A DNA stretch of 39,250 bases, from assembly GCF_000231035.2 (NCBI RefSeq), contig NZ_KI912260.1, forward strand, positions 28,910 to 68,159, read 5' to 3'. The position numbers and the translations under genes were made by a program. Numbering within the stretch: position 1 is the stretch's first letter; the number at the start of each line of letters is the position of its first letter. Origin of the DNA: Saccharomonospora iraqiensis subsp. paurometabolica YIM 90007. Its GTDB lineage: Bacteria > Actinomycetota > Actinomycetes > Mycobacteriales > Pseudonocardiaceae. Shown here in pieces: positions 1,097 through 39,250 of this stretch. The notes below the pieces were generated by a model. It searched no databases. It was not told where the DNA came from and saw only the letters and a list, made by a program, of their open reading frames with translations.

Positions 1097-4000
1097 TTGG
1101 CAGTCTCTCCCGCGAACCAGGCCACTGCTGCGACCAACTCGATTCGACCGTCGACGGGCATTCCAGGAGCACCGAAGCGGGTCTCGTTCGGGAAGATCCG
1201 GGAGCCGCTCGGCACGCCGAACCTGCTCGATATCCAGGTTCGCTCCTTCGAGTGGTTCACCGGCTCGGAAGCGTGGTTCGAACGCGCGGTCAACGAGGGT
1301 GAGGAGAACCCGAGCGGCGGTCTCGAGGAGGTCCTCAGCGAGATCTCGCCGATCGAGGACTTCTCGGGCTCGATGTCGCTGTCCTTCTCCGACCCGCGCT
1401 TCGACGAGGTGAAGGCCTCCGTCGAGGAGTGCAAGGACAAGGACATGACGTACGCGGCGCCGCTGTTCGTCACGGCCGAGTTCGTCAACAACAACACCGG
1501 TGAGATCAAGAGCCAGACGGTCTTCATGGGTGATTTCCCCGTGATGACCGACAAGGGCACGTTCATCATCAACGGCACCGAGCGGGTCGTGGTCTCGCAG
1601 GTCGTCCGGTCGCCCGGTGTGTACTACGACCAGTCCATCGACAAGTCGACGGACAAGGACGTCTTCAGCGTCAAGATCATCCCGAGCCGGGGTGCGTGGC
1701 TCGAGTTCGACGTCGACAAGCGGGACACCGTCGGGGTGCGCATCGACCGCAAGCGCAGGCAGCCGGTGACCGTGCTGCTGAAGGCGCTCGGCTGGAGCAC
1801 CGAGGCGATCCGCGAGCGGTTCTCCTTCTCCGAGACGCTGCTCGCGACCCTGGAGAAGGACCACACGGCGGGCACCGACGAGGCGCTGCTGGACATCTAC
1901 CGCAAGCTGCGCCCCGGTGAGCCGCCGACGAAGGAGAGCGCCCAGACGCTGCTGGAGAACCTCTTCTTCAAGGACAAGCGCTACGACCTCGCCAAGGTCG
2001 GCCGCTACAAGGTCAACAAGAAGCTCGGCCTCCAGCTTCCGTACGACAGCGGCACGCTCACCGAAGAGGACATCGTCACCACCATCGAGTACCTCGTCCG
2101 GCTGCACGCCGGTGAGGAGACGATGGGCGAGGGCGAGACCGAGGTGCCCGTCGAGACCGACGACATCGACCACTTCGGCAACCGCCGCCTGCGCACCGTC
2201 GGTGAGCTGATCCAGAACCAGATCCGGGTCGGCCTCTCCCGCATGGAGCGCGTGGTCCGCGAGCGGATGACCACCCAGGACGTCGAGGCGATCACGCCGC
2301 AGACCCTGATCAACATCCGCCCGGTCGTCGCCGCGATCCGCGAGTTCTTCGGCACCTCGCAGCTCTCGCAGTTCATGGACCAGGGCAACCCGCTGTCCGG
2401 GCTCACGCACAAGCGCCGGCTGAACGCGCTCGGCCCCGGTGGTCTCTCCCGGGAGCGCGCGGGCATGGACGTCCGTGACGTGCACCCCAGCCACTACGGC
2501 CGGATGTGCCCGATCGAGACGCCGGAAGGCCCGAACATCGGCCTGATCGGCTCGCTGTGCTCCTACGGCCGGGTCAACCCGTTCGGGTTCATCGAGACCC
2601 CGTACCGCCGGGTCGTCGAGGGCCGGGTCACCGACGAGATCGACTACCTCACCGCCGACGAGGAGGACCGCTACGTCAAGGCGCAGGCCAACGCGCCGCT
2701 GAATGACGACGGGACCTTCTCGGAGGAGAAGGTCCTCGGGCGGCGGAAGGGCGGCGACGTCGAGCTGATCGACCCGCTCGACATCGACTACATGGACGTC
2801 TCGCCGCGGCAGATGGTCTCGGTCGCGACGGGCATGATCCCGTTCCTCGAGCACGACGACGCCAACCGTGCGCTGATGGGCGCGAACATGCAGCGTCAGG
2901 CGGTACCGCTGCTGCGCAACGAGTCGCCGATGGTCGGCACCGGCGTCGAACTCACCGCCGCGGTGGACGCGGGCGACGTGATCGTGGCCGAGCAGGCGGG
3001 TGTGGTCGAGGAACTGTCGGCCGACCTGGTCACCGTCATGCAGGACGACGGCGACCGCAAGACCTACGGGCTCTACAAGTTCCGCCGGACGAACGCGGGC
3101 ACCTGCTTCAACCACCGCCCGGTGGTCAACGAGGGCGACCGCGTGGAGAAGGGCCAGGTCATCGCGGACGGCCCGTCCACCGAGGACGGCGAGATGGCAC
3201 TCGGCAAGAACCTCCTCGTCGGCATCATGCCGTGGGAGGGCCACAACTACGAGGACGCCATCGTCATCTCGCAGCGTCTGGTGCAGGACGACGTGCTCAC
3301 CTCGATCCACATCGAGGAGCACGAGACCGACGCGCGGGACACCAAGCTCGGCGCCGAGGAGATCACCCGGGACATCCCGAACGTCTCCGAGGACGTGCTG
3401 GCCGACCTCGACGAGCGCGGCATCGTCCGGATCGGTGCCGAGGTCCGCGACGGCGACATCCTGGTCGGCAAGGTGACCCCGAAGGGTGAGACCGAGCTGA
3501 CGCCGGAGGAGCGGCTGCTGCGGGCCATCTTCGGCGAGAAGGCGCGGGAGGTCCGGGACACCTCGCTGAAGGTGCCGCACGGGGAGACCGGCAAGGTCAT
3601 CGGCGTCCGGGTGTTCTCCCGCGAGGACGACGACGAGCTGCCGCCCGGCGTCAACGAGCTCGTCCGCGTGTACGTGGCCAAGAAGAGCAAGGTCCAGGAC
3701 GGCGACAAGCTCGCGGGACGGCACGGCAACAAGGGCGTCATCGGCAAGATCCTCCCGGTCGAGGACATGCCGTTCATGGAGGACGGCACCCCGCTCGACG
3801 TCGTGCTCAACACGCACGGCGTGCCGCGCCGGATGAACATCGGGCAGATCCTCGAACTCCACCTCGGGTGGCTCGCCTCCCAGGGATGGAAGATCGAGGG
3901 CAATCCCGAGTGGGCGGCCAAGCTCCCCGAGGAGCTGTACGACGTGGAGCCCGGCACGAACACCGCCACGCCGGTGTTCGACGGTGCCCGCGAGGAGGAG

Positions 4001-12769: not shown

Positions 12770-13144
12770 TTGCCCACGATCCAGCAGCTGGTCCGCAAGG
12801 GCCGCCAGGACAAGGCTGCCGCTCAGAAGACGGCGGCGCTCAAGGGGAGCCCGCAGCGTCGCGGTGTGTGCACGCGCGTGTACACCACCACGCCCAAGAA
12901 GCCGAACTCCGCACTGCGCAAGGTCGCCCGTGTGAAGCTGAGCAACGGCATCGAGGTCACGGCCTACATTCCCGGTGAGGGCCACAACCTGCAGGAACAC
13001 TCGATGGTGCTCGTGCGTGGCGGCCGTGTGAAGGACCTTCCGGGTGTTCGCTACAAGATCATCCGCGGTTCGCTCGACACGCAGGGCGTGAAGAACCGTA
13101 AGCAGGCGCGCAGCCGGTACGGCGCGAAGAAGGAGAAGAGCTAA
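12770..13144 (+). CDS. rpsL: 30S ribosomal protein S12
   Basis: S12 sits at the decoding centre of the 30S subunit. The TTG at 12770 gives the expected 124 residues beginning [12 protein letters not shown]; longer in-frame starts only add non-homologous leader. The conserved [16 protein letters not shown] loop has Lys43 and the second loop ([10 protein letters not shown]) has Lys88, the wild-type residues for streptomycin sensitivity. The TAA overlaps the rpsG ATG by one base (TAATG), so the two are translationally coupled. The ribosome binding site before TTG is weak. Confidence 0.97.
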
Positions 13145-13614
13145 TGCCCCGCAAGGGTCCGGCCCCGAAGCGGCCACTGACCTCCGACCCGGTGTACGCA
13201 TCTCCGCTCGTCACCCAGTTGGTGAACAAGGTGTTGCGGGACGGGAAGCGTTCGGTGGCCGAGCGCATCGTCTACGGCGCGCTCGAGGGCGCCCGGGAGA
13301 AGACCGGCACCGACCCGGTCGTCACCCTCAAGCGTGCGCTCGACAACGTGAAGCCCACTCTCGAGGTGAAGAGCCGCCGCGTCGGTGGTGCCACCTACCA
13401 GGTGCCCATCGAGGTCAAGCCGGGCCGGTCGACGACTCTCGCGCTGCGTTGGCTCGTCACCTATTCGCGGCAGCGTCGCGAGAAGACGATGGTCGAGCGC
13501 CTGCAGAACGAGCTGCTCGACGCGAGCAACGGCCTCGGGGCCAGCGTGAAGCGCCGCGAGGACACCCACAAGATGGCCGAGTCGAACAAGGCCTTCGCTC
13601 ACTACCGTTGGTGA
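13144..13614 (+). CDS. rpsG: 30S ribosomal protein S7
   Basis: Primary 16S rRNA-binding protein that organises the 3' major domain (head) of the 30S subunit. It is 156 residues, the usual bacterial length. The N-terminus [12 protein letters not shown], the basic [19 protein letters not shown] helix and the C-terminal [13 protein letters not shown] are family features. The start ATG overlaps the rpsL stop by one base. The fusA start follows 93 nt later in the same operon. Confidence 0.97.
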
Positions 13615-13707
13615 GCGCGAACATCGCAGTGAACCGTCGGACACGGTCGCCCGGTCCGTTTGACCGCGCCAATGCCGGGTTCCACGTTCAGGACAGGGGA
13701 ACATCAA

Positions 13708-15807
13708 GTGGCACGTGACGTGCTGACCGACCTCAACAAGGTCCGCAACATCGGCATCATGGCCCACATCGACGCCGGTAAGACCACCACCACCGAACGG
13801 ATCCTGTTCTACACCGGGATCAACTACAAGCTCGGTGAGGTCCACGACGGCGCGGCCACGATGGACTGGATGGACGAGGAGCAGAAGCGGGGTATCACGA
13901 TCACCTCGGCTGCTACCACGACGTTCTGGGACGACTACCAGATCAACATCATCGACACCCCGGGCCACGTGGACTTCACCGTCGAGGTGGAGCGCTCGCT
14001 GCGCGTGCTCGACGGTGCCGTCGCCGTGTTCGACGGTAAGGAGGGCGTCGAGCCGCAGTCCGAGCAGGTCTGGCGGCAGGCCGACAAGTACGACGTCCCG
14101 CGCATCTGCTTCGTCAACAAGATGGACAAGCTCGGCGCGGACTTCTACTTCACCGTGGACACCATCTCTGAGCGGCTCGGCGCCCGCCCCCTGGTTCTCC
14201 AGCTGCCGATCGGCGCGGAGAGCGACTTCCAGGGGATCGTCGACCTCGTCCAGATGAAGGCTCTGACCTGGCGTGGTGACGTCAAGAAGGGCGAGAAGTA
14301 CGAGGTCGAGGACATCCCGGCCGACCTCGTCGACCGGGCCGCGGAGTACCGCGAGAAGCTCGTCGAGGCGGTCGCCGAGACCGACGACGAGCTGATGGAG
14401 CGGTACTTCGGCGGTGAGGAGCTGAGCGAGGCCGAGATCAAGGCCGGCATCCGCAAGCTCACCGTCGACCGGGAGGCGTTCCCGGTGCTCGCGGGATCCG
14501 CGTTCAAGAACAAGGGCGTGCAGCCGATGCTGGACGCCGTGGTCGACTACCTTCCGTCGCCGCTGGACGTGCCGCCGGTCGAGGGCACGCTCCGGGACGG
14601 GGAGACCCGCGTCTCCCGGAACCCCTCGACGGAGGAGCCGTTCTCGGCGCTCGTGTCCAAGGTCGCGGTGCACCCGTTCTACGGCAAGCTGACCTACATC
14701 CGGGTCTACTCCGGCAAGGTCTCCTCGGGTACGCAGATCATCAACGCGACCAAGGAGCGCAAGGAGCGCATCGGGAAGCTGTTCCAGATGCACTCCAACA
14801 AGGAGAACCCGGTCGAGGACGCCCAGGCGGGGCACATCTACGCGGTTCAGGGCCTCAAGGACACCACGACCGGGGACACCCTGGCCGACGCCCAGAACCC
14901 GATCGTGCTCGAGTCGATGACCTTCCCGGAGCCGGTCATCAAGGTCGCGATCGAGCCGAAGACCCGTTCCGACCAGGACAAGCTCTCCACGGCGATCCAG
15001 AAGCTCGCCGAGGAGGACCCGACGTTCCGGGTGAGCCAGGACGAGGAGACCGGTCAGACCATCATCGAGGGCATGGGTGAGCTCCACCTCGAGGTGCTGG
15101 TCAACCGGATGAAGACCGACTTCAAGGTCGAGGCGAACATCGGTAAGCCTCAGGTCTCCTACCGCGAGACCATCCGCAAGACCGTGGACAAGCTCGAGTT
15201 CACGCACAAGAAGCAGACCGGTGGGTCCGGTCAGTTCGCGCGGGTGATCGTGAAGCTGGAGCCGCTGACCTCCGGGGACGGCGCGCTGTACGAGTTCGAC
15301 AACCAGGTCACCGGTGGGCGTGTGCCGAAGGAGTACATCCCGTCGGTCGACGAGGGCGCGCAGGACGCCATGCAGTACGGCGTGTTGGCCGGTTACCCGC
15401 TCGTCGGGCTGAAGTTCACCCTGTTGGACGGTGCGTACCACGAGGTCGACTCCTCGGAGATGGCCTTCAAGGTCGCCGGTTCGATGGCGATGAAGGATGC
15501 CGCGAAGAAGGCGAACCCGGTACTGCTGGAGCCGATGATGGCGGTCGAGGTGACCACACCCGAGGAGTACATGGGTGACGTCATCGGTGACCTGAACTCC
15601 CGCCGTGGCCAGATCCAGGCCATGGAGGAGCGTTCCGGTACGCGCGTCGTGAAGGCGCTCGTGCCGCTGTCGGAGATGTTCGGGTACGTGGGTGACCTGC
15701 GGTCGAAGACCCAGGGTCGCGCCAACTACACGATGGTCTTCGACTCCTACGCCGAGGTTCCGGCGAACGTCGCGAAGGAGATCATCGCGAAGGCGACGGG
15801 GGAGTGA
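13708..15807 (+). CDS. fusA: Elongation factor G
   Basis: Translocation and ribosome-recycling GTPase. GTG 13708 has AGGGGA at 13695-13700 and gives 699 residues beginning [20 protein letters not shown]. The G1 P-loop is A19-H-I-D-A-G-K25-T-T, followed by the switch [10 protein letters not shown] and the G4 NKMD. The domain IV-V region is intact ([38 protein letters not shown]). The protein ends AKATGE with TGA at 15805-15807. Its last codons are repeated downstream in a tandem array. Confidence 0.97.
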
Positions 15808-16049
15808 GCATCGAGTGAGCGGTAGCTCGCGAGGCGCGCAACTCTCCCGGAGTCGAGCATCGATGACGCGAAGGCGACGGGGGAGTGAGCATCGAGTGAG
15901 CGGTAGCTCGCGAGGCGCGCAACTCTCCCGGAGTCGAGCATCGATGACGCGAAGGCGACGGGGGAGTGAGCATCGAGTGAGCGGTAGCTCGCGAGGCGCG
16001 CAGCTCTCCCGGAGTCGAGCAGTGGTTATCGCGAAGGCGACGGGGGAGT
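15787..16049 (+). repeat. 81-bp tandem repeat array copying the fusA 3' end
   Basis: Units lie at 15787-15867 and 15868-15948 (identical, 81 bp) and 15949-16030 (82 bp, diverged at its end), plus a partial copy 16031-16049. Each begins with the last 19 nt of fusA coding sequence (GCGAAGGCGACGGGGGAGT), followed by about 62 nt of non-fusA sequence. A 22-nt segment flanks the whole array (15784-15805 and 16028-16049). In each unit GGGGGAGT can pair with ACTCTCCC around an inner GAGC-GGTA-GCTC hairpin, so the transcript could fold into a row of stem-loops. There are no unique spacers, so it is not CRISPR. Confidence 0.9.
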
Positions 16050-16174
16050 AACCCGGAGCACCCATCCGCGGGCGTGAAAGGGGACTCCCCCTAGGGTCCG
16101 CACAACCGACCAGATCGAGTCGTCGGCCGGCTGCCACGCCGGTCGCGAGCAAGAAAGTCCAGGAGGACATTCCA

Positions 16175-17368
16175 GTGGCGAAGGCGAAGTTCGAGCGGGG
16201 CAAGCCGCACGTCAACATCGGGACCATCGGTCACGTCGACCACGGCAAGACCACGCTGACCGCGGCGATCACCAAGGTGCTTCACGAGAAGTACCCCGAG
16301 CTGAACAAGTCCAGGGCGTTCGAGCAGATCGACAACGCCCCGGAGGAGAAGCAGCGCGGCATCACGATCAACATCGCGCACGTCGAGTACCAGACCGAGG
16401 CGCGGCACTACGCGCACGTTGACGCGCCCGGCCACGCCGACTACATCAAGAACATGATCACCGGTGCGGCGCAGATGGACGGCGCCATCCTGGTGGTCGC
16501 GGCGACCGACGGCCCGATGCCGCAGACCCGGGAGCACGTGCTGCTGGCCCGCCAGGTCGGCGTCCCCTACATCGTGGTGGCGCTGAACAAGGCGGACATG
16601 GTCGACGACGAGGAGATCCTCGAGCTCGTCGAGATGGAGGTCCGTGAGCTGCTCAGCTCGCAGGAGTTCCCCGGCGACGACGCCCCGGTCGTCCGCGTCT
16701 CGGCGCTGCAGGCGCTCGAGGGCGAGGAGAAGTGGGCGCAGAGCATCATGGAGCTGATGGACGGCGTCGACCAGAACATCCCGGACCCGGTGCGGGCCAC
16801 CGACAAGCCGTTCCTGATGCCGATCGAGGACGTCTTCACGATCACCGGCCGCGGCACGGTGGTCACCGGCCGGATCGAGCGCGGCGAGATCAAGCTGAAC
16901 GAAGAGGTCGAGATCGTCGGCATCAAGCCGGACGCCCGCAAGACCACGGTCACCAGCATCGAGATGTTCAACAAGATGCTGGACTACGGCCAGGCCGGCG
17001 ACAACGCCGCCCTGCTGCTGCGTGGTGTCAAGCGGGAGGACGTCGAGCGCGGCCAGGTCGTCGTGAAGCCGGGCACCACCACCCCGCACACGGAGTTCCA
17101 GGCCTCGGTCTACATCCTGGCCAAGGACGAGGGTGGCCGGCACACGCCGTTCTTCAACAACTACCGCCCGCAGTTCTACTTCCGCACCACCGACGTCACC
17201 GGTGTCGTGACGCTGCCGGAGGGCACGGAGATGGTGATGCCGGGCGACAACACCGAGATCTCGGTCCAGCTGATCCAGCCGGTCGCGATGGACGAGGGTC
17301 TGCGGTTCGCCATCCGCGAGGGTGGCCGCACCGTGGGCGCCGGCCAGGTCACCAAGATCGTCAAGTGA
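16175..17368 (+). CDS. tuf: Elongation factor Tu
   Basis: GTPase that delivers aminoacyl-tRNA to the ribosome. GTG 16175 has AGGAGGA at 16161-16167, 7 nt away. The product is 397 residues, the usual length. Motifs: G1 G19-H-V-D-H-G-K25-T-T, effector region [12 protein letters not shown], switch II D83-A-P-G-H (Ala where E. coli has Cys, common in actinobacteria), G4 NKAD, and the domain II-III landmarks [12 protein letters not shown] and [24 protein letters not shown]. It follows the repeat array by about 125 nt and ends at a long inverted repeat. Confidence 0.98.
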
Positions 17369-36970: not shown

Positions 36971-37067
36971 GGCGCCGGACGACGCCTTGACAGGCAACAG
37001 ACGTGCGAAAGCGGCGCGGTCCGCCCGCAGAACGACCTACCTCCACCCGCCCGCGGAACGACCCACC

Positions 37068-37107
37068 CCCGCCCGCCCGGGACCACGGCCGGTGCCGGGC
37101 GGGCGGG
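37068..37107 (-). terminator. Probable terminator of the ESX (eccE) operon
   Basis: A perfect 13-bp inverted repeat CCCGCCCGCCCGG (37068-37080) / CCGGGCGGGCGGG (37095-37107) has a 14-nt loop. It lies just beyond the stop of the minus-strand gene 37126-37848, in the position of its terminator. Very GC-rich, without a T-run. The rest of 36884-37125 holds weak copies of the intergenic repeat core (37019-37060) and no gene. Confidence 0.6.
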
Positions 37108-37848: not shown

Positions 37849-39250
37849 GCGGTACCTCCCAGGGGTAACGTCGAGGCGAATCCGGAGGCCTGTGATCCAC
37901 GGAGCGGTGTCAGTGTGACGCCGATCCGTTCGGAGACGCTCGTCAACCGTTGATCGCCCGCCTCGAGTTCACGTGGATTCCGTGCGCTGATACGGACGAC
38001 GCCCCGCAGCCCGACCTTACCCTCGTCGGACGCGGGCGAGAGGGACATGGCGACGGTCGCGGACAACGCGCGGACGCTGGTGAGCGCGTTGAGGTTGCTG
38101 CTGATCCGCCCCTTCGGCCACCCCGTGATCGCGTAACTGGCGTGGCCGATCCCGGCGGCGGTGACCCCGCCCCACTTCTCATGCAGCCGGACACGGGTGG
38201 TCGAACCGGCGACGTCGGTCAGTTCGGCCGCGGAAATCCCCGACCTCAGCAGCTCCTCGGGGTTCAGCGGCCTGGTCGGCACTCCCTGTGACTCCAGTGC
38301 ATTGCGGACGCGCGACAGGGCACCCATCAGCGCTCTGTGCGCACCGACGACACCCCCGCCGCGTTCACGGACAGCCGTCGGACACCGTTTCGGGTCGAGT
38401 CGGACGGAGATCCAGGTGGTGCGTCGCGCCGGGGCGGACAATGGCCCGAGAACCTCCAGGTAGGACTCGAGTGCCGGTGACTCCGCCGGGAGTGCCGCAC
38501 TGCCCGGGTAACAGTGCGAGGTCATCTGGATCGAGTCGAGGATGACTCCACGGTCCTCCAGGCAGGGCGCCAGTGCCGCGAGGGGAAGGCTCGGTGCGGC
38601 ATCCGCCTGGGTGATCAGTGCCGGTGTCGGTTCCACCAGAAGAACCGCCGTCCACGTCCCGTCGTGCCAGGCGAGCCCGACCTCGTGATGCTCATGGTCC
38701 TTCGTCTTCGCCACGACGAGGTCGGGCACCGCGAGTCGCAGCAGACTGACGCGGGCGTCCTCGGGTCCGAGGATCTCCTCGCCGTCGTCCTCGCCGACGG
38801 CGACGGGCTCGACATTGGTCGGATCCGGTGGGGTAATCACGCGATCGTGTGAGCGAAGCGCGTATCGGACCGTAAGCCCCGCCCATTGCGTGAACCACTG
38901 GCCCTTCCACCGGAGGAAGGCCAGGACAAGTGCCACGGCGGTGACGCCGATCGCCGGGTAGAGCAATCCGTCGTTGATCGCGACAAGGACGAGGCCGACC
39001 GCGAACCCCAACTCGAGCACCACGATGTTGGCTACCGGGAACAGGCCGAAGCTCGCCGCCGCCATCCGGCGTCGTGCGGGTGGTACCTCACGCGTCGTGC
39101 TTCCGGTTTCTCCCTGGCCACCGGGGGGCTCCCCGGAACCCCCCGACTCTGACGGGCCACCGCCCGGTCCGCCGGGCCCGCCGGGACCTCCCGGTCCACC
39201 GGGCCCACCCGGTCCGCCCGGACCACCGGGCCCACCCGGGCCCCCGGGCC
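37845..39250 (-). CDS. eccE: Type VII secretion protein EccE (partial, N-terminus outside window)
   Basis: EccE is a membrane component of ESX secretion machines, at the periphery of the EccBCDE complex. From an internal ATG at 39065 the protein shows two N-terminal transmembrane helices (VANIVVLELGFAVGLVLVAI and LYPAIGVTAVALVLAFL) and then the soluble EccE domain (WFTQWAGLTVRYALRSHDRVI, HHEVGLAWHDGTWTAVLLVE, RTTWISVRLDP). The frame remains open upstream to the window edge through a Glu/Ser/Gly linker and ten Pro-Gly-Gly triplets, so ATG 39065 is probably internal. It is followed by the unknown gene 37126-37848 with a 4-nt overlap. Confidence 0.85.
   Translation of the reverse strand, partial: PGGPGGPGGPGGPGGPGGPGGPGGPGGPGGGPSESGGSGEPPGGQGETGSTTREVPPARRRMAAASFGLFPVANIVVLELGFAVGLVLVAINDGLLYPAIGVTAVALVLAFLRWKGQWFTQWAGLTVRYALRSHDRVITPPDPTNVEPVAVGEDDGEEILGPEDARVSLLRLAVPDLVVAKTKDHEHHEVGLAWHDGTWTAVLLVEPTPALITQADAAPSLPLAALAPCLEDRGVILDSIQMTSHCYPGSAALPAESPALESYLEVLGPLSAPARRTTWISVRLDPKRCPTAVRERGGGVVGAHRALMGALSRVRNALESQGVPTRPLNPEELLRSGISAAELTDVAGSTTRVRLHEKWGGVTAAGIGHASYAITGWPKGRISSNLNALTSVRALSATVAMSLSPASDEGKVGLRGVVRISARNPRELEAGDQRLTSVSERIGVTLTPLRGSQASGFASTLPLGGTA
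39159..39250 (-). repeat. 9-bp tandem repeat encoding (Pro-Gly-Gly)n in eccE
   Basis: Ten consecutive Pro-Gly-Gly triplets are encoded on the minus strand with a strict 9-bp period from 39165 to the window end, and the tract may continue beyond. Codons vary (GGT/GGC/GGA/GGG, CCG/CCC), suggesting selection for the peptide as well as slippage. Confidence 0.8.

Follow-up and report, generated by a model that had tools for sequence, protein, structure and literature searches.

At the 3' end of fusA, in the 39,250-nt stretch of DNA analyzed here (the window), lie three tandem units that probably form the fusA-resident branch of an apparently mobile, MIRU-like actinobacterial repeat, whose copies turn over by recombination between gene-end copies and whose hairpin is under selection on the sense strand. 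This reading draws on the presence of homologous units where fusA ends in other genera and families, compensatory changes and a sense-strand preference in the hairpin, the existence of dispersed as well as tandem copies, an exact 244-bp difference between presence and absence of the array, and the low background of a covariance model of the units (R1). Weighing against it, the window's own genome holds no dispersed copies, the association with start codons is not family-wide, and R1 was trained mainly at fusA. The unit would be a sense-strand hairpin of about 76 nt followed by a short linker: the last 19 to 22 nt of fusA would serve as the 5' arm, the inserted sequence would provide the loop, a variable terminal stem and the 3' arm, and a second gene-end copy downstream would carry the original TAA stop. 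The features of the locus are as follows.

13660..15807, + strand: fusA (EF-G); listed frame of 715 aa with a TTG start; NCBIfam TIGR00484, 1097 bits, residues 23-712
15784..15805, + strand: proximal 22-nt fusA-end copy (ATCGCG...GAGT), inside fusA; its final T is the T of the TGA stop
15787..15862, + strand: unit 1 hairpin, 76 nt; -42.2 kcal/mol, z -4.45; R1 82.9 bits
15863..16051, + strand: predicted small ORF of 62 aa, in frame across units 2 and 3 (translation of the sequence)
15868..15943, + strand: unit 2 hairpin, identical to unit 1; fold z -4.45; R1 82.9 bits
15949..16024, + strand: unit 3 hairpin; -42.5 kcal/mol, z -4.05; R1 86.4 bits
16028..16049, + strand: distal 22-nt fusA-end copy; its final T is the T of TAA, the same TAA stop as at the empty site of genome G011
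16175..17368, + strand: tuf (EF-Tu), the downstream neighbor; NCBIfam TIGR00485, 720 bits

The tandem 81-bp repeats that an earlier note had described from the letters of this locus were recovered by Tandem Repeats Finder at 15786-16049 (period 81, 3.2 copies, 96% matches) and resolve into units of 81, 81 and 82 bp (15786-15866, 15867-15947 and 15948-16029). Units 1 and 2 are identical; unit 3 shows 5 differences, 4 of them within its last 8 nt. The two 22-nt gene-end segments said to flank the array are likewise identical and are spaced 244 bp apart. Folded as RNA, each window unit gives a single long interrupted hairpin of 76 nt, whose 5' arm consists of the final 19 nt of the gene end and the letters GAGC; the last six codons of fusA and its stop (TGA, 15805-15807) fall within the 5' arm of the first hairpin. 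Because the gene end itself forms this arm, the element is a unit of about 76 nt with the gene end included, rather than the 62-nt insert first proposed. The accompanying idea of insertion with target duplication was right in that gene-end copies flank the array, but the gene end is the 5' arm of a hairpin and not a passive duplication. The array lies at the fusA end, 123 nt upstream of tuf, and ATGA occurs in it at the unit junctions only; the predicted 62-aa ORF starts at one such ATGA and ends at the TAA of the distal fusA-end copy. The nearest named fusA among the matches listed, which may omit the nearest records, was that of Prauserella endophytica, at 89%.

The array is real, not a product of chance, because its units fold far better than shuffled sequences and because other genera carry homologous units at the corresponding position. 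The earlier placement of an element at the fusA end is supported. A terminator and promoter scan of the locus found none, with no T-run terminator, and an Rfam search of window positions 15600-16250 and of the loci of six relatives gave no match near its gathering score. The tuf start (GTG GCG AAG GCG AAG; 16175-16190) and the fusA end (15787-15800) have GCGAAGGCGA in common, so that simple repeat searches report false second copies in the spacer. A search for a second gene-end copy by 19-nt match, positive in 24 of 80 named fusA loci at p<=0.01, was discarded in favor of the R1 count, many of its matches being the tuf start with this motif. Elsewhere in the window, other GC-rich tandem repeats lie near its end (37021-37079 and 39159-39250, with periods of 26 bp and 27/18/9 bp), and a 1028-aa open frame runs antisense to fusA (13141-16227, minus strand); long antisense open frames are common in GC-rich genomes.

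Copy number was compared across 12 genomes of the same genus (G000-G011, G000 being the window genome), with G002 excluded from the counts since it gave no match there, even to the gene end. The fusA end carried four units in G007, three in G010 and in G000 (as assembled, in a draft of 82 contigs and 4.67 Mb), two in G003 and G004, and one in G001, G005, G008 and G009. G006 had a shortened unit there plus a second R1 match of unlisted place, and G011 had no unit. With 0 to 4 units per genome, the array is not fixed among its relatives. Aligned over 3033 positions, G000 and G011 agree at 3010 (99.2%), and the only gap between them is exactly 244 bp long. Where G011 lacks the array, its 22-nt gene end runs directly into TAA, which identifies the distal fusA-end copy as the carrier of the original stop. 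The C-terminus of EF-G is unchanged in G000 and G011, with or without the array, because the hairpin arm spells it. Inner sequences of the units are alike inside one genome and differ between G000 and G007. The units of one genome thus seem, from their sequences, to be homogenized, and the identity of units 1 and 2, together with the likeness of units inside G000 and, with other letters, inside G007, agrees with the recent amplification suggested before. The identical gene-end copies would let copy number change, through unequal recombination or through slippage between them, and the same recombination could remove the array cleanly, as the exact 244-bp difference suggests for G011; alternatively, G011 could represent the state before insertion. 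In a Mycobacterium draft genome, the fusA end is followed by ten identical 80-bp units (L251, G085:C99:106900-109200).

The fold of the window units is far more stable than expected from their composition, with z scores of -4.45, -4.45 and -4.05 for units 1 to 3 and 0 of 200 shuffles as good. Unit 1 reached -42.2 kcal/mol on the sense strand and -25.4 kcal/mol (z -0.77) on the antisense strand, and the antisense fold of unit 3 was little better than shuffles (z -0.44). One dispersed copy folded alone (L135) was no better than its shuffles (z 0.06). Conservation of the structure was assessed in an alignment of 31 units (24 from the fusA locus, 7 dispersed; 18 named pairs), in 60 distinct copies found by R1 in 8 genomes (7 of them training rows and 2 from the fusA locus of G021), and in 27 distinct Mycobacterium copies found by R1 (3 of them at fusA); alignments A2 and A3 were fitted to the structure. 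Because the sequences are related, the shuffle counts overstate significance: paired cells amounted to 91.6%, 85.9% and 84.7% in the three sets, respectively, and double-change cells to 25 versus 11.2 in shuffles (0 of 500 as high), 57 versus 17.8, and 44 versus 14.6. Moving the partner by 1 to 3 columns in the 31-unit alignment lowered pairing to 27 to 45%. The hairpin has one weak stretch, over the positions of the last Gly and Glu (Gln) codons, where three pairs are unpaired in 11 to 12 of the 31 units and two columns fail in 19 to 20 of the 27 Mycobacterium copies; the RNAalifold consensus left these three pairs out, and its covariation term was small.

The sense strand folded better than the antisense strand in 31/31 and 57/60 units of the first two sets and in 26/26 Mycobacterium units. 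The mean sense advantage was greater than composition predicts, and the sense lead exceeded all 20 shuffles in 26/31, 25/60 and 6/26 units, the last being those of Mycobacterium. U-G pairs are conserved at one column pair in 31/31 units and at another in 26/31, and such pairs become mismatches on the opposite strand. From the modeled structures we infer that RNA is the form under selection. Selection would then maintain the hairpin on the sense strand, most likely in RNA form, and the benefit may lie either in the repeat's own spread or in rendering it harmless or useful within the fusA-tuf transcript.

R1 was built from the 31 aligned units, two of which are window units, and its matches lean toward fusA-like 5' arms because most of this training came from the fusA locus. 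Its recovery of three full-length units in the window (positions 1-77; 86.4, 82.9 and 82.9 bits; E 6.7e-18 to 5.2e-17) is therefore partly by construction. The search of the window genome for the insert that the earlier note had proposed returned, by both blastn and R1, only the fusA array itself. The suspicion of a dispersed repeat held for other genera, where a dispersed family exists, but not for this genome, which has no dispersed copies by either method. Among 61 relatives, 29 had a match at E<=0.01, with 61 matches in G021 (same family), 18 in G051, 10 in G053, 9 each in G040 and G044, 7 in G020 and 6 in G037. Scans of more than 40 genomes used strict filters, by which weak matches are lost. 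In such scans, 29 of 150 genomes of the family matched at E<=1e-4 (25 matches in G802, 17 in G770), as did, at E<=0.001, 78 of the 198 genomes of Mycobacterium, the genus that includes M. sherrisii. Across the class only 13 of 296 genomes, own genome included, matched at E<=1e-4 and 283 had no match; the others were 7 genomes of one genus in the same order and 5 outside the order with weak matches (E 9.5e-6 to 4.2e-5). This class-wide result places the center of the family in this order and indicates a low R1 background. Tandem 81-bp units with the core GAGGATCGCAGCGAGCGCCAGCGAGCGAGGACCGGAG and a weak R1 match (2.7e-5) were seen outside the order, in another family of the class (L271, L277; G504:C1). 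The pattern AAGGCGACSGGNSAGTGAGCATCG, allowed 2 mismatches, gave 23 matches in 21 of the 198 Mycobacterium genomes, 22 at fusA and one elsewhere (L119); some of those at fusA (e.g., L116, L127 and L128) mark a gene end without a hairpin unit. It was rejected as a detector of the family, as it misses dispersed copies that R1 found.

Away from fusA, the Mycobacterium copies have a characteristic position. At 17 of 18 dispersed loci the repeat stops at an ATG that is followed by A and leads into a continuing open frame, and 15 have ATGA just upstream of the first unit. An identical 11-nt repeat flanks both sides at 5 of 17 scorable loci, at start codons, and tandem dispersed loci have a period of 76 to 77 bp in nine cases out of ten and of 68 in one. 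The frame downstream of one pair of these loci is presumably PknA. Several units of G051 and G053 also lie at ATGA or GTGA. The start-codon habit is not family-wide, however, since only 1 of 19 loci away from fusA in G021 (L171-L190) ends on ATG or GTG. Two further kinds of fusA spacer were seen in passing. In L182 (G021:C9:57900-59350), two diverged units follow fusA in a genome with many dispersed copies, and Saccharopolyspora spacers (L031, L032, L041, L044 and L055) contain, beyond an insert that looks unrelated, another copy resembling the fusA end (about CGCGAAGGCGACCGGGGAGCAA), possibly a decayed unit.

These properties invite comparison with the mycobacterial interspersed repetitive units (MIRUs), reportedly described by Supply et al. 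in 1997. A pattern from MIRU typing primers had 0 matches in 396 Mycobacterium genomes, and the comparison is one of descriptions. Extracts of the cited papers describe MIRUs as 46- to 101-bp tandem repeats at 41 loci of strain H37Rv (PMC3914561), with units of 77 bp in senX3-regX3 (PMC4213456), often in 5' UTRs (PMC4128351), and as apparently mobile elements that insert at start codons with a -4 spacing and a small ORF coupled to the next gene (PMC12548453). Their range is given as M. leprae and the M. tuberculosis complex only (PMC4213456) or as "many mycobacteria" (PMC12548453). The window array resembles them in unit length (81/82 bp, and 76 to 77 bp in nine of ten tandem dispersed relatives in Mycobacterium), in being a tandem array of variable copy number, and in having ATGA at the junctions of units 1-2 and 2-3 with a predicted small ORF through the units; in most dispersed Mycobacterium relatives, moreover, the repeat ends at the next frame's start codon, with an ATGA overlap. 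It differs in lying at a gene end and using the codons of that gene as a hairpin arm, in being the only such locus of its genome whereas relatives in other genera are interspersed, in lacking start-codon placement or a -4 (ATGA) overlap with the next gene, and in lying outside Mycobacterium with a covarying hairpin that is absent from these MIRU descriptions. The mycobacterial relatives fit the MIRU description in length, place and small ORF, and we call the family MIRU-like, likening it to the M. tuberculosis repeats by description alone. Mobility of the repeat, likewise, is something that we infer from sequence distribution.

Stem-loops in such repeats have been touched on before: a genome-wide search seeded on stem-loops picked up the M. 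tuberculosis family Myt-11, which "contains MIRU repeats," although in the available text the secondary-structure table lists Myt-1 and Myt-8 without Myt-11 and no fusA-locus or nonmycobacterial members are named (PMC2267715). MIRU-VNTR-like sequences have been mentioned in several NTM species and in "non-mycobacteria"; in the part of that source available these are typing tandem repeats, one cited source concerns Leptotrichiaceae, and an overlap with the R1 family is possible (PMC5849605). Among the literature matches listed, no description of fusA-locus or Pseudonocardiaceae MIRU-like repeats was found, though unlisted papers or subscription journals may hold one. Other short repeats are alike by description as well. 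REP/BIME, ERIC and other proteobacterial palindromic repeats are short, intergenic, dispersed, nonautonomous and form RNA hairpins; the present units share the small size, dispersal and hairpin but also stand in tandem arrays and, in mycobacteria, at start codons. The attC sites of integrons are also imperfect hairpins; like the present units, they are interrupted at regular intervals, keep conserved ends and vary in the length of the terminal stem, whereas the conserved G-U pairs of R1 units point to one strand of RNA.

The most serious competing explanation, which we regard as a good deal less likely than a mobile repeat, is a resident cis-regulatory RNA of the fusA-tuf operon, either an mRNA processing or stability element or an attenuator, which selection would maintain at this locus, with the tandem copies as by-products. 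The covarying structure with its sense-strand preference would suit such an RNA, and so would the arms: across 33 fusA-locus units, the 3' arm paired with its own fusA end at a mean of -22.2 kcal/mol versus -19.1 with the fusA ends of other species (none of 5000 permutations reached so low a value), a test in which kinship between units remains and in which the own end ranked first in 3/33 units only. A motif test of the loci placed the best R1 match at fusA in 16 of the 29 matching genomes of the relatives scan, in 20 of the 30 strongest of the 78 in Mycobacterium, and in 10 of 19 new loci in the family scan, which also favors residence there. Yet the array is absent from G011 at 99.2% identity, no T-run terminator was found, and dispersed copies adjoin other genes. 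Among 80 named loci chosen by fusA similarity alone, 66 had no R1 match even at E<=0.1; 10 had clear matches at the fusA end (E<=5.5e-5), one more matched at 0.0022, L048 and L092 matched weakly (0.057 and 0.099), and the weak match of L037 lies away from the fusA end. On a fusA tree of 99 rows, presence and absence changed at least 14 times (23.3 with shuffled labels), a count that is a guide only since 19 rows entered the set through a match to the array or the gene end.

Two further explanations would dispense with a mobile hairpin repeat, and both are very unlikely. Purely local duplication by replication slippage at the fusA end would account for the exact tandem units, the whole-number differences in copy number and the likeness of units inside one genome, but the insert is non-fusA sequence and homologous units occur at many other loci and in other genera. 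Integration at gene 3' ends restores the gene end and displaces the original one downstream, as is seen at this junction, and the array might on these grounds be the relic of a site-specific integrative element with the fusA 3' end as its attachment site and att-like direct repeats left behind; the units, however, are only about 80 nt long, with a conserved hairpin common to several families, and in mycobacteria the dispersed relatives lie at the start codons of a variety of genes. Least probable of all is an assembly artefact of the 82-contig draft, because units of the same kind are present in the one- or two-contig genomes G003 (2 units), G010 (3 units) and G005.

Within the preferred reading of an apparently mobile, MIRU-like repeat, its birthplace is a separate matter. 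The fusA 3' end may have been the cradle of the whole family, MIRU-like repeats included, a hairpin on the last codons, with a 3' arm complementary to them, having become mobile and taken its fusA-derived arm to start codons genome-wide, but we put this forward tentatively and think it improbable on present evidence. In its support, the 3' arms at fusA pair better with their own gene end than with those of others, also where the codons differ: units at fusA genes with an AKARGE C-terminus (L267, L268 and L270, in other families of the class) have the gene-end copy and a largely complementary arm. Among seven dispersed copies in G040, four start with the precise letters GCGAAGGCGACGGG that are seen at fusA. 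For three dispersed 5' arms, the fusA end was the best or equal match in 56, 64 and 60 of 66 element-free loci (5.7 to 8.8 kb). For the other ten of the thirteen arms, it was best in only 0 to 36 of 66, and because of this and of searches biased toward fusA-like arms, birth at fusA is held as a hypothesis only. Much of this evidence can also be explained by the main alternative, in which the repeat has repeatedly inserted into, or captured, a look-alike target.

Strain typing in tuberculosis relies heavily on MIRU repeats, and a model built mostly from units at one gene end now detects repeats like them in Pseudonocardiaceae, in Mycobacterium and in other families of the order. Together with the conserved sense-strand hairpin, R1 offers a structural definition of the family that can be applied to any genome, so that the origin and spread of the family become testable in soil actinomycetes. 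For a repeat, using as an arm the coding end of a gene that is both essential and highly expressed would be an unusual way to be harmless. If the fusA end was indeed the cradle, a live gene end is still used as an arm at fusA, and host codons and a mobile hairpin would coevolve.
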